Assembly: GCA_023268355.1 (NCBI GenBank)
Contig: JALNJK010000003.1
Coordinates: forward strand, 124,001 to 188,000
Direction of reading: 5' to 3'
Source of the DNA: Candidatus Terraquivivens tengchongensis
GTDB lineage: Archaea > Thermoproteota > Nitrososphaeria_A > Caldarchaeales > Wolframiiraptoraceae
DNA: 64,000 nucleotides
The number at the start of each line of letters is the position of its first letter. Within the stretch, counting starts at the first letter, position 1. Of the stretch, positions 8,504 to 30,257 are shown piece after piece. The position numbers and the translations under genes are program-made. The notes beneath the pieces are model-generated. The model did not search any database, was not told where the DNA came from, and worked only from the letters and a program-made list of their open reading frames with translations.

Positions 8504-9289
8504 TTAGATAGTTATTCCGAAAACACTTAAGATGAACTTTAAGGAAACGTATAGGAAAACAACACCGAAGACCAGCTTTATATATGAAGCTGGAACCTTT
8601 GGTACGAGTCTTGAACCTATTTGCGCTCCTATTGCCGTTCCAGCTCCAAGTGATAACGCGGCAACAACATCTACCAATCCCTGATATATCTTGAACACTC
8701 CTGAAATGACTGCCATGCTTATGAATGAAGCTAAAGATGTTCCGACAGCTATCTTAACAGGTGATTCGAGAAGATATATCATTGAAGGAACTAAAGCGTA
8801 CCCGCCTCCTAAACCAACGATACCTGTCAACACTCCTATGACAAGCCCTATCAATGATTTGACTAAAGCGCTTCCAGGAACGATATTTCCAGTTTTTGCC
8901 TCAACCCTTCTCCTGATGCCACCTTCATATATCATCCTTAGAGAGACGTATAGGAATGCCGCTCCTAGGATGAACTTCAGTAGTGACAGCTGTTCTACTA
9001 GATATTGGAAAACAATTGAACCGAGCAATGCACCTACCGCACCTGACGTGGCTATAATTATTGCGGTTTTATAATCTACGTTTCTTATCTTTATGTGGGC
9101 CATTGAGCCCGATGTTGCCGTTATTATGACTGCAGTAATTGTCGTACCAATGGCTACAGGTAAGTTGTAATTAAAGAGAAAGTATAGGGCCGGAAGCATT
9201 ACAACACATCCGCCAGTTCCCAAGAATCCTCCAAGAATTCCTGCGAGCAAACCAAAGATCATCAAAATGATTATAAAAAACGCTTCCAT
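8504..9289 (-). CDS. TauE/SafE family anion or sulfur-compound transporter
   Basis: A 261-aa protein with eight hydrophobic segments in two related halves, each beginning with the glycine-rich motif of the family (LLAGILGGFLGTGGC and VIGVLTGIVGLGGGY). Members export sulfite, sulfoacetate or thiosulfate-type anions. It is divergent from an ArsR-type gene across a 30-bp palindrome, so its expression is probably controlled by that regulator. Which anion it carries is unknown. Confidence 0.92.
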   Translation of the reverse strand: MEAFFIIILMIFGLLAGILGGFLGTGGCVVMLPALYFLFNYNLPVAIGTTITAVIITATSGSMAHIKIRNVDYKTAIIIATSGAVGALLGSIVFQYLVEQLSLLKFILGAAFLYVSLRMIYEGGIRRRVEAKTGNIVPGSALVKSLIGLVIGVLTGIVGLGGGYALVPSMIYLLESPVKIAVGTSLASFISMAVISGVFKIYQGLVDVVAALSLGAGTAIGAQIGSRLVPKVPASYIKLVFGVVFLYVSLKFILSVFGITI

Positions 9290-9309: not shown

Positions 9310-9339
9310 TTTATAGCAATATTTAAATATTGCTATAAA
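9310..9339. promoter_or_regulatory. 30-bp perfect palindrome overlapping the TATA box (ArsR operator candidate)
   Basis: Half-site TTTATAGCAATATTT is followed directly by its exact reverse complement. The central tttaaata is a good TATA box in both directions, for the TauE-like gene on one side and the arsR-type gene on the other. Binding of a dimeric repressor here would block both promoters. Confidence 0.75.
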
Positions 9340-9358: not shown

Positions 9359-9670
9359 ATGAGAGATCTAGAAAAATTTAAGGCTAGAATCTTCAGAGCT
9401 CTCTCAGATCCTATAAGGCTTAAAATTCTTGAATGCCTGCGTAGCGGAGAAAAGTGTGTCTGTGAGATCGTTTCGTATGTCGGAATAACTCAGCCAGTAG
9501 TTTCTAGGCATTTAGCAATCCTGAAGAGATGTGGGATTGTTGTAGACAGGAAAGAAAGGAACAAAAGATTTTATTCCGTAAACAACCCGGCCATATTCAA
9601 CATAATTGACATGATTGACAAGGATTTCATGGATGCACTCGTAAAGCACGTCGTCGATCAGCTCATATAA
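9359..9670 (+). CDS. ArsR/SmtB family winged-helix repressor
   Basis: A 103-aa DNA-binding protein with the ArsR fold: ALSDPIRLKILECLRSGEKC, then the recognition helix region TQPVVSRHLAILKRCGIV and a beta wing (RKERNKRFYSVN). The Cys-Val-Cys-Glu segment lies at the start of helix 3, the alpha-3 metal or thiol sensor site of ArsR/CadC-type proteins. It could therefore respond to a thiophilic metal, persulfide or sulfite. The palindrome 20 nt upstream is its likely operator. Confidence 0.92.
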   Translation: MRDLEKFKARIFRALSDPIRLKILECLRSGEKCVCEIVSYVGITQPVVSRHLAILKRCGIVVDRKERNKRFYSVNNPAIFNIIDMIDKDFMDALVKHVVDQLI

Positions 9671-16125: not shown

Positions 16126-16219
16126 GGGCCGGTGGTCTAGCCTGGTATGACGCCACCCTGACTTAGACTACGGCTACAGGAAGCGGTGGAAATCCCCGGT
16201 TCGAGTCCGGGCCGGCCCA
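16126..16219 (+). tRNA. tRNA-Val (anticodon GAC) with an anticodon-loop intron
   Basis: The acceptor GGGCCGG/CCGGCCC, anticodon stem CCACC/GGTGG and T-arm CCCGG-TTCGAGT-CCGGG are clear. The anticodon loop is 27 nt, so about 20 nt are intronic, probably after position 36 or 37. Within it CTG/CAG (CCTG/CAGG if the stem opens) and TAG/CTA helices with a 3-nt ACT bulge give a relaxed bulge-helix-bulge with a larger 3' bulge. The anticodon is read as GAC. TATA tatatatcaa is about 30 nt upstream. No encoded CCA. Confidence 0.88.
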
Positions 16220-16322
16220 CCTTTAAATGGAATGTGCGATGTTGCACCTATCATGATCTACTTCATTAAGAAGGCTTATGACTTCTTAGGAGACTCGAGG
16301 TTGGATCTACCAAGCTGCGTCT

Positions 16323-18229: not shown

Positions 18230-18694
18230 CCGTATTATACTGTTTTCTGTGCTACCTAATTAGGATGGTGTCCAACGCTCGATAAGCCAGTATTACTCCG
18301 TCACAGTCAAGCCCACTCTGCCGTTATTGTGAGCACGACACATGCCTGATTCTGTACCCATGAACAGAGCTCTTACGTTACTTCAAGCTCCGAACGGTTA
18401 TGCGAGCCTTTGACCAAAAAGGATAGCTCATCGCATGTAAGAGGTAACCGATTTACAGTAGCTCGAAAGCATCCCCGCCACAGTTTGGCCGTCCTGCTGT
18501 TCTATGTGAGATTCCACATGTAATACCGTGAAATTCTTGAGGGCGCCTTGAGGTTTTCCTCAAAATTTTCGGCTTCTACGTTCTGATTCCTTGGAATTTT
18601 GTGGATTCTAATCAGTAGAATGTCTCTAGAAACGAGCGGGTTAAATAAAGCGGATTCAAGCATTCGGGCGCAAGTTTGCGAGTGTGATGAGAAA
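18230..18694. other. 465-bp gap holding the promoter of the giant surface protein
   Basis: No gene or RNA is apparent between 18230 and about 18600. A TTGAGG-TTTT-CCTCAA hairpin lies at 18548-18563. The strong TATA-like gttaaataaa at about 18640-18649 predicts a start near 18672, and an SD-like GTGATG (18685-18690) precedes ATG 18695. The remainder may be an upstream control region. Confidence 0.5.
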
Positions 18695-28352: not shown

Positions 28353-28667
28353 CTAATCTTTTCGAATCAAGACCTGTCTGCCCTCTACTATGGCCCTTAC
28401 GAGTTTCTCTCTGCCGCTCTGAACTAGCCTCCAGATAGTATTCCTGGATACGCGCATCCTTTCACCGGCTTCATCCATAGTTAATTTGTCTAGGTCTACG
28501 AGCTTTAGTGCCTCAACCTCTGCGATATCTAAGTATATCGGTTCATTGCTACCTTTTGGTGAAGGCTCTATCCTTTCGACAAGAGGTATAGTCGAGATGA
28601 CGACTGGTTTTGGACATCTGCCGACTCCGCCGTACCTTTGCCTTCTGCACCAACGGTATCCGTGCAC
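28353..28667 (-). CDS. UPF0251 (DUF134) family helix-turn-helix regulator
   Basis: A 104-aa protein with the UPF0251 layout: a basic, Cys-containing N-terminus (RWCRRQRYGGVGRCPKP), the EVEALKLVDLDKLTMDEAGE segment and a helix-turn-helix GERMRVSRNTIWRLVQSGREK. The family is often found beside NifX-like or DUF5320 genes. The start is GTG 28667, virtually at the predicted transcript start. It is divergent from the DUF5320/NifX pair and probably controls both directions through the operator pair. Confidence 0.88.
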   Translation of the reverse strand: MHGYRWCRRQRYGGVGRCPKPVVISTIPLVERIEPSPKGSNEPIYLDIAEVEALKLVDLDKLTMDEAGERMRVSRNTIWRLVQSGREKLVRAIVEGRQVLIRKD

Positions 28668-28674
28668 GTTTTTA

Positions 28675-28717
28675 TGTGATATTTCACAAAATTTAAATAT
28701 TTCTGTGAAATATCACA
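28675..28717. promoter_or_regulatory. Paired operator sites flanking a bidirectional TATA box
   Basis: TGTGATATTTCACA (28675-28688) and its exact reverse complement (28704-28717) lie on either side of the TATA-like aaatttaaatattt. Each site itself has TGTGA/TCACA ends. Centre-to-centre distance is 29 bp. The layout fits autoregulation by the UPF0251 protein. Confidence 0.75.
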
Positions 28718-28735
28718 ATATGGAGGTGATTGGGG

Positions 28736-28966
28736 GTGTATGGGGGTTGGCATTACAGGTATTGGCCTAAAGGTTGGTGGTGTCCAAGACATCCATGGCC
28801 GCCTGCTTGGGCTAGAGCATACGCTCCATGGTGGTACGGGTATCCGGCAGACCCAAGTGAGGAATTAAAGTTCCTAGAGGATACGAAGAGAGAACTGGAG
28901 AGACAAATATCGGAGATCAACAGGAAGATAGAGGAACTGAAGAAATCTCTCGAAGAAAAGAAGTGA
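28736..28966 (+). CDS. DUF5320-like small protein with aromatic N-terminus and coiled coil
   Basis: A 76-aa protein. The first 38 residues are rich in Trp, Tyr, Pro and Gly (YGGWHYRYWPKGWWCPRHPW). They are followed by a charged coiled coil (EELKFLEDTKRELERQISEI and onward) ending in EEKK. This two-part layout is typical of DUF5320 proteins linked with NifX-like genes. GTG 28736 follows a GGAGGTGAT Shine-Dalgarno by 5 nt; TTG 28730 lies inside that motif and is unlikely. Its stop overlaps the next frame. Function unknown; a metal-cluster carrier partner is possible. Confidence 0.78.
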   Translation: MYGGWHYRYWPKGWWCPRHPWPPAWARAYAPWWYGYPADPSEELKFLEDTKRELERQISEINRKIEELKKSLEEKK

Positions 28967-28971
28967 AAGAG

Positions 28972-29304
28972 ATGAGGGTTGCAGTAGCCACCGTCAGAGA
29001 TAAAGGTCTAGAAGATGTTGTTTCCCCTCACTTTGGACACACGAAGTCGTTTACGATAATTGAGATAGAAGACGGTAAGGTCAAAACGTTTGAGGTCATA
29101 AGTAACCCAGCAGAAGCTCTAACGCATAAAAGAGGACTAACGGTCGCAAAAACATTAGCGAACAAAAACGTGGATGCAGTAATATTGAGCGAGATGGGTC
29201 CAGGAGCATCAGCCGCGTTACAGCAATTTGGAATAAAAACATTGATAGTTAGGCCGGGCCAGAAGGTCAAGGACGCACTAAGAGAGCTGGGCCTAATAAC
29301 CTGA
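28972..29304 (+). CDS. NifX/NifB-type iron-molybdenum cluster-binding protein
   Basis: A 110-aa single-domain member of the dinitrogenase FeMo-cofactor family. RVAVATVRDKGLEDVVSPHFGHTKSF is the characteristic start, and ILSEMGPGASAALQQFGIKT is the conserved second half. These proteins bind or carry metal-sulfur clusters. No nitrogenase gene is seen here, and many such archaeal proteins act outside nitrogen fixation. ATG 28972 lies 5 nt after the upstream stop. Confidence 0.9.
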   Translation: MRVAVATVRDKGLEDVVSPHFGHTKSFTIIEIEDGKVKTFEVISNPAEALTHKRGLTVAKTLANKNVDAVILSEMGPGASAALQQFGIKTLIVRPGQKVKDALRELGLIT

Positions 29305-29363: not shown

Positions 29364-30257
29364 ATGACCTCTAACGACGTCCATGTGAGAATGAGAAAGC
29401 GAAGCCCAATTCGCAAGGTCTTGCTGGTGTCGACCTTTGGAAACGCTGCTATTTGCGGGTTAAAGATCGCCGGTGGCGTGCTGTCTGGGAGCACGGCCCT
29501 ACTCGCTGACGGTAGCGACTCGCTACTCAACGTCGCCAGCGGGGCTATAGCATACACGTTTAAGTCTAAGGCAGAGAAGCCCCCAGACTCTAGGCATCAG
29601 TATGGACACTCGCTTCTCGAAGTCTACGGCTCCTTACTGATACTTATGTTGATGATTTTCACATTTTCATTTATCGCATTCATTGCTATTGACAAACTTA
29701 GACATGGCTTCATAGAACCTATCGACCCAATAGGTGTGCCTTTTGCTATCGCTTCTTTAGTGCTTAACGTGAGTATGAGCACACTTCTCAGACTCTTTGG
29801 ACGGGAGAGCACCATAGCTAGCGTTGAGGCGCGGCATATAAGCCTGGACGTGATAGAGGGTTTGTTGACGCTTTCTGGCGTCTCGTTAGGGGTTTATGTA
29901 TCAGCGTTATATGATGTCGTGGCAACATTCGTATTAATCGTATTGATTGCCTTCTTCGTCGTCCAAACGTTCCGCGAGTTGAGGGCGTCCATAATCGCTG
30001 AAACCCCTCCAGAGGAAGTGATGAAAGCCCTCGAAAATACGCTCGTGGGTGTGGATGGTGTGAGAGGAATTCACAGCCTCCGCATTAGGCAGGCTGGAAA
30101 GAAAATCTTCGCAGATGTGCACCTAGAGGTTGATAGAAATCTAACGGTTGAGGAAGCCCATAGGATTTGCGACGAGGCAGAAAGCAAGCTAAAGCAGAGA
30201 CTTAGCAACGTTGATATCGTGATACACATCGAGCCTGAAAGCGAGGAACAATCGTAG
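29364..30257 (+). CDS. Cation diffusion facilitator (CDF) family metal transporter
   Basis: A 297-aa protein that exports divalent metal (Zn, Fe, Mn or Co) using the proton gradient. Six membrane helices carry the two metal motifs: Asp49/Asp52 in LLADGSDSLLN and His158/Asp162 in EARHISLDVIEG. The C-terminal ferredoxin-like domain (VDGVRGIHSLRIRQAGKKIF and HIEPE) is complete. It is 60 nt after the NifX-type gene and could help metal balance for it, although its own promoter is possible. Confidence 0.93.
   Translation: MTSNDVHVRMRKRSPIRKVLLVSTFGNAAICGLKIAGGVLSGSTALLADGSDSLLNVASGAIAYTFKSKAEKPPDSRHQYGHSLLEVYGSLLILMLMIFTFSFIAFIAIDKLRHGFIEPIDPIGVPFAIASLVLNVSMSTLLRLFGRESTIASVEARHISLDVIEGLLTLSGVSLGVYVSALYDVVATFVLIVLIAFFVVQTFRELRASIIAETPPEEVMKALENTLVGVDGVRGIHSLRIRQAGKKIFADVHLEVDRNLTVEEAHRICDEAESKLKQRLSNVDIVIHIEPESEEQS

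Follow-up and report, generated by a model that had tools for sequence, protein, structure and literature searches.

Mirrored 14-bp palindromes around a shared TATA box as probable operators of the archaeal DUF134 (UPF0251) protein and its divergent DUF5320-NifX gene pair

The region between two divergent transcription units of Candidatus Terraquivivens tengchongensis holds two exact, mirror-image copies of a 14-bp site, one on each side of a TATA-box-like element, and these sites are very probably the docking site at which a DUF134 (UPF0251) protein would switch its own gene together with the neighbouring gene pair. The latter pair, encoding a DUF5320-like and a NifX-like protein, is suspected from its sequence to have a role in carrying metal clusters. 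The locus lies in a 64,000-nucleotide stretch of DNA (the window) from a genome of 1.25 Mb in 8 contigs, and it is made up of the following features:

28353-28667, minus strand: UPF0251/DUF134 protein, 104 aa from GTG 28667 (PF02001, 66.8 bits, cut-off 27)
28675-28688, plus strand: candidate operator proximal to DUF134, TGTGATATTTCACA, exact, between the TATA box and the GTG start
28691-28699, common to both directions: TATA-box-like element ATTTAAATA, including TTTAAATA at 28692-28699
28704-28717, minus strand: candidate operator proximal to DUF5320, TGTGATATTTCACA on the minus strand, exact reverse complement
28722-28729, plus strand: Shine-Dalgarno-like GGAGGTGA of the DUF5320-NifX transcript, read from the sequence
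28736-28966, plus strand: DUF5320-like small protein (PF17253, 22.6 bits, cut-off 27), with homologues divergent from DUF134 in relatives
28963-29304, plus strand: NifX/ORP-like protein, start GTG 28963 or ATG 28972 (PF02579, 79.6 bits, cut-off 26.3)
29364-30257, plus strand: CDF gene, profile score over the cut-off

The initial annotation had named the three central genes UPF0251, DUF5320 and NifX-like. Membership in DUF134 (PF02001, curated cut-off) and in Nitro_FeMo-Co (PF02579) is borne out by scores well above the cut-offs, whereas the small protein stays below that of PF17253, for which reason it is called DUF5320-like here, and the third protein is far from the equivalog cut-off of NifX proper (TIGR02663; 24.1 bits versus 112). 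A PF17253 scan of seven relatives gave one protein over the cut-off (L403, 28.6 bits), five below it and one without a match. The DUF134 family, which we take to be COG1342, is thus clearly represented in the window by profile, with a helix-turn-helix weakly like sigma-70 region 4 (the Sigma70_r4 and HTH_17 matches are both sub-threshold) and a recognition helix that reads VSRNTIWRLV; the score against NCBIfam PRK04217.1 (81 bits) is below the cut-off of 115. A single-sequence AlphaFold model of the protein was too poor for use (pLDDT 51.7), and the search for a solved DUF134 structure gave just one unrelated chain (E 0.84). Many DUF134 members carry an N-terminal GRGRPPKPR-type stretch, similar to an AT-hook motif, which fits the AT-rich centre of the sites. 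The DUF5320-like protein, with its Trp/Pro-rich N-terminus and coiled-coil-like C-terminus, likely starts at GTG 28736, behind the Shine-Dalgarno-like element, rather than at TTG 28730, although the TTG may still be the start, and its gene overlaps that of the NifX-like protein by 4 nt. The solved chains nearest to the NifX-like protein are 1eo1 (MTH1175, E 4.5e-12) and 2wfb (ORP, E 3.1e-8), and by its similarity to ORP the protein may be an ORP-like metal-cluster carrier. The solved PF02579 chains (1eo1, 2wfb, 1rdu, 1o13, 2yx6, 1t3v and 2re2; MTH1175, ORP and TM1290-type) are similar to it, the best over most of the chain, and most of them were deposited as hypothetical or uncharacterised proteins.

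As read from its letters, the control region is a succession of candidate operator, TATA box and candidate operator. Exact mirrored 14-bp sites had been described around a TATA box between divergent genes, and both their positions and the gene order are as described: the two 14-mers are 29 bp apart (start to start), and 7 nt separate the DUF134-proximal site from the DUF134 start codon. The idea of a mirrored operator has to be amended, however, in that each 14-mer is by itself a near-palindrome, TGTGA-N4-TCACA with two inner positions breaking the symmetry, and therefore the region would contain two dimer-size operators and not one split mirror. On the minus strand, GAAATATTTAAATTT precedes the site next to DUF134, and some 28 nt lie between the TATA centre and GTG 28667; at the usual archaeal TATA-to-start distance, the DUF134 mRNA would be leaderless or nearly so. 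On the plus strand, the transcript is expected to start near 28720, just before the Shine-Dalgarno-like element and GTG 28736. A ATTTAAAT or TATATAAAT core is found between paired sites in relatives (e.g. L009, L010, L013, L015, L019, L209, L229, L237 and L244), and the complement of the Shine-Dalgarno-like element (TCACCTCC or close) adjoins the distal site in many of them.

The strongest comparative result came from 122 DUF134 loci (14 from the window's genome and its relatives, 28 further loci of the phylum and 80 more), nearly all of the same archaeal phylum sample and exclusive of the 29 lowest-scoring DUF134 places among the phylum matches listed and of those beyond. When all dyads with 5-bp arms were searched over a 235-bp stretch ahead of each DUF134 domain, with ten control stretches per locus, this unbiased search returned TGTGC-N4-GCACA as the top dyad (15 loci versus 0.5 expected) and TGTGA-N4-TCACA as the second (11 loci versus 0.0 expected). 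With a simple site score, fixed after the top dyads had been seen, 63 of the 122 upstream regions reached at least 9, compared with 31 of 1127 control tiles. In 62/122 loci a DUF5320-like or NifX gene is transcribed away from DUF134 at a distance of at most 1 kb; the DUF5320 profile behind this count was built up iteratively from short proteins of low complexity and may have taken in coiled-coil matches by chance. At the same score threshold, sites were present in 52 of these 62 divergent loci (10 having none) versus 11 of the 60 others. The regulatory proposal of the initial annotation was open to challenge by relatives that have the gene trio and lack the sites; in the event, sites were found in 15/16 divergent loci with an SRNT helix, as in the window, and in 34/40 with an SRGT helix, versus 7/11 and 4/41 non-divergent loci, respectively, and in 3/14 loci with other or misread helix labels, a few loci being misnamed in these counts. 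That is, regulator and presumed targets are transcribed outwards from a common control region whose palindromes are conserved, as they would be in an autoregulated divergent switch, and the proposal of a promoter autoregulated by UPF0251 is well supported by the recurrence of the sites in relatives with the trio and from their co-variation with the helix (see below).

On this basis, DUF134 is likely a dimeric autorepressor that acts, via the 14-bp palindromes, on its own gene and on the divergent DUF5320-NifX operon. It would be a one-component helix-turn-helix regulator sitting as a dimer on the palindromes at either side of the TATA box, the bound dimer would keep the transcription machinery from assembling or starting in either direction, and derepression would follow some signal, possibly metal-cluster, sulfur or redox status. 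In archaea a site between TATA box and start codon usually represses. Repression of both directions is suggested for the window's lineage because each palindrome separates the TATA box from one of the divergent genes, and it is from this position of the sites that we infer the direction of control. In 21/24 SRNT loci the 22 nt preceding the DUF134-proximal site contain a TATA-like word, and in 0/24 the word follows the site, random 22-mers containing such a word in 83 of 2440 cases. In the SRGT loci the word is upstream in 2/36 and downstream in 27/36, so in this class the site next to DUF134 mostly precedes the TATA box and autorepression is less clear; occlusion is apparent on the DUF5320 side but not on the DUF134 side. 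In the window's family the spacing of paired sites is 28-29 bp, as measured in the 5 loci where two sites scored; in other SRNT loci it is 38-45 bp, and in SRGT loci mostly 24-25.

The same geometry could be read the other way, with DUF134 binding but activating, such that the distal site would recruit basal factors while the proximal one would serve the other promoter as its activator site. Two sites around one TATA box do make every site distal to one promoter, and the 27/36 SRGT loci in which the DUF134-nearest site is upstream of the TATA box would suit an activator, but SRNT loci with a single scored site place it between the TATA-like word and the start (e.g. L230, L236, L238, L240, L245, L252 and L253), and we regard activation as unlikely. 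Repression by DUF134 is thus retained as the preferred reading.

Further support for DUF134 as the binding protein was obtained from its recognition helix. Half-site position 5 is solely A in 23 of the 24 SRNT loci with a site (the exception being L236), whereas it is C or T in 34 of the 36 SRGT loci (exceptions L011 and L191). The association is strong by Fisher's test (p 2.9e-13), a value that overstates independence because the helix changed between N and G essentially once: in the weakly resolved tree the SRNT proteins form one 30-row clade, which includes one SRTT member, while SRGT proteins with TGTGC sites sit in more than one part. Site sequence and DUF134 recognition helix thus change together, for the most part in a single step of the tree. 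Two other groups, presumably Halobacteriota (37 loci, 30 from the phylum of a Methanocellales record and 7 miscellaneous) and Thermoanaerobacteria (30 loci from the class of a Caldanaerobacter record), have mostly other helices (SRRAFW, SRPTFF, SRQTFQ and SQPTFH), and no TGTG dyad enrichment was found for the DUF134 genes with other helices among these 67 loci. The top dyads of both groups are not TGTG-type, and TGTG-type sites as an operator of the whole family were rejected. In two loci of another archaeal phylum (L277 and L278), the helix reads SKATVWRLV and, by eye, TTGAAATATGTTTCAA and TGCGACATGTTTCA flank TATTTAAAT. These loci adjoin DUF5320-like genes and show the TATA-flanking layout of the window in different letters; SKATVWRLV with TTGAAA-N4-TTTCAA-type palindromes is possibly a third site specificity.

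Adjacency alone does not prove which protein binds, and TGTGA-N-TCACA resembles CRP/FNR-type half-sites, so that some other regulator might occupy the sites with DUF134 merely as a neighbour. Against this, the exact sites occur at one place in the genome, their sequence tracks the DUF134 helix, seven of the 11 SRNT loci in which no divergent NifX or DUF5320 gene was detected keep a site at DUF134, and no TGTG dyad appears among DUF134 loci whose helix is of another type. We therefore consider another binder improbable and continue with DUF134.

A genome-wide search for the site, put forward with the initial annotation, returned the exact 14-mer TGTGATATTTCACA solely at this pair, and TGTGANNNNTCACA likewise at these two places only, the backwards control pattern occurring once. 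Eight other places in the genome match the 14-mer with two mismatches, seven of them inside long reading frames, and a wider regulon in this genome was rejected on that account. The sole near-match outside long reading frames is in the window (18505-18518, TGTGAGATTCCACA), about 80-95 bp upstream of a 2307-aa reading frame at 18599. Exact TGTGATATATCACA sites in two relatives without DUF134 (G001 and G009) were likewise discarded, as they lie inside reading frames. Within the window, this locus and 9310-9339 are the only two with exact inverted 14-mers whose gap is 60 bp or less. A nucleic-acid hairpin (terminator or leader structure) in place of operators is very improbable: the 68-nt stretch does fold, as single-stranded DNA, far better than shuffles (z -5.7), but the repeat overlies the promoter, and hence neither transcript should hold both arms, each site is palindromic alone, and relatives keep single palindromes as well as pairs at spacings of 18 to 45. 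Nor is chance a credible source, short AT-rich dyads being generally common in AT-rich intergenic DNA but exact inverted 14-mer pairs with a gap in that range appearing in 0/40 dinucleotide shuffles of the window, beside the excess of sites upstream of DUF134 over control tiles given above.

The families were said to co-occur, and this holds in the window's genome and its 40 relatives: DUF134 and PF02579 are both present in 12 of the 41 genomes and both absent in 26, with DUF134 only in 2 and PF02579 only in 1. A PF02001 match was thus found in 14/41 of these genomes and in 144/397 genomes of the phylum, a PF02579 match in 13/41 and 195/397, and a DUF134 match in 99/147 sampled genomes of another phylum. 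Two members of the window's genus are among those without either family. No DUF134-NifX fusion that could hint at the signal was found among 122 and 66 DUF134 reading frames. Remote NifX genes have a site close upstream, as judged by eye, in 10/45 cases in genomes with DUF134 and in 2/13 cases in genomes without a DUF134 match (L143 and L387-L398), the latter two loci being in fragmented assemblies (G194 and G232). The 10 comprise 4/9 loci of the window's relatives (L149, L156, L158 and L159), 4/7 in SRNT genomes of other families (L380, L383, L384 and L385 among L380-L386) and 2/24 among L352, L355-L358, L360-L373 and L375-L379 (L352 and L357), with 0/5 in L399-L402 and L404; the tandem NifX pairs of many genomes have no sites close by. 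Some NifX genes are probable trans-targets of DUF134, as judged from these sites, but a trans-regulon over all NifX genes is only suggestive because the contrast is that of 10/45 with 2/13. One locus (G015) has three sites, one between NifX and DUF134 and two between a P-loop ATPase frame and a DUF5320-like gene; the counterpart of this ATPase in G021 (L017) is NUBPL/ParA by Pfam.

The CDF gene had been taken for a metal exporter belonging to the system. This link was not upheld, a CDF gene being found beside the trio in 3 of the 122 loci within the 1.5-2 kb reach of the fetched loci, two of the three in the window's genus. In some genomes the trio is accompanied by genes for TauE/SafE, a NUBPL-type ATPase, AhpC/TSA, OsmC, flavodoxin, or rubrerythrin-like or flavodiiron-like proteins, which suggests, but does not decide, a role in the anaerobic upkeep of sulfur, metal clusters or redox state. 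In G014 and G017 a TauE/SafE gene lies at most 200 bp beyond NifX and belongs to a TauE subfamily 76-91% identical to the window's TauE (8504-9289); members of this subfamily adjoin an ArsR gene in the window's genome (G000), G004 and G005. In G001, which belongs to the window's genus and gave no match to DUF134 or PF02579, the TauE of that subfamily (L449, G001:C8:15784-16482) has two in-frame stops. In G002 (L448, G002:C19) the gene is truncated to the last 74 aa of the window's TauE, and upstream of it a TGTGATTTGTCACA site at 1887-1900 stands beside a TATA-like stretch, perhaps the scar of an earlier trio-TauE operon. In the window itself, a perfect 30-bp palindrome (9310-9339, TTTATAGCAATATTTAAATATTGCTATAAA) is centred on a TATA-like element between the TauE/SafE gene, on the minus strand, and an ArsR-family gene (9359-9670, plus strand), and may represent a second mirrored switch; the TauE/ArsR locus of G004 has a perfect 28-bp palindrome in other letters (L444, from 994). 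Elsewhere in the window, at 16126-16221, ARAGORN called an unusual tRNA-like gene whose anticodon is read as four bases (ttag); it may have an intron or be a false call.

The kind of switch proposed here is familiar. In ArsR-, Lrp- and TetR-type divergent switches, too, regulator and target run apart from a common control region with palindromic operators; the locus studied here differs in its DNA-binding family and in having one TATA box between two separate operators. In the part of the literature covered, no paper was found on the function or operator of DUF134/UPF0251, no title on the function of DUF5320, COG1342 or PF02001, and no mention of the site TGTGATATATCACA; the parts seen of PMC7565180 and PMC5886521 merely name the families. 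The assignment made here of a predicted operator and target operon would therefore be one for an uncharacterised family. The closest parallel on the target side is provided by the orp operons of Desulfovibrio vulgaris, which, according to the available parts of PMC6345978 and PMC3897727, likewise form two divergent units around one control region with an ORP-type product. The orp system is bacterial and driven by sigma-54, a cognate regulator and IHF, whereas the window has an archaeal TATA promoter and DUF134, and those parts of the two accounts mention neither DUF5320 nor DUF134; going by reference titles in PMC6345978, ORP is known for a Mo/Cu cluster.

A wider and distinctly more tentative reading is that DUF134 is a widespread family with an evolvable code (SRNT-TGTGA, SRGT-TGTGC, SKAT-TTGAAA) that might sense the load or state of sulfur-ligated metal clusters and control, from its own divergent and from remote promoters, a cluster-handling set of DUF5320 and ORP-type NifX, to which some genomes would add a NUBPL/Mrp ATPase and a sulfur-anion exporter of the TauE/SafE type. 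If the helix code is true, an N to G swap in the SRNT helix would shift the preference from TGTGATATATCACA towards TGTGCTTATGCACA (C). With a predicted operator, a predicted contact residue and natural variants at hand, the DUF134/UPF0251 family becomes directly testable, and the operator assignment would give a regulatory handle on the archaeal DUF5320/ORP-type proteins.
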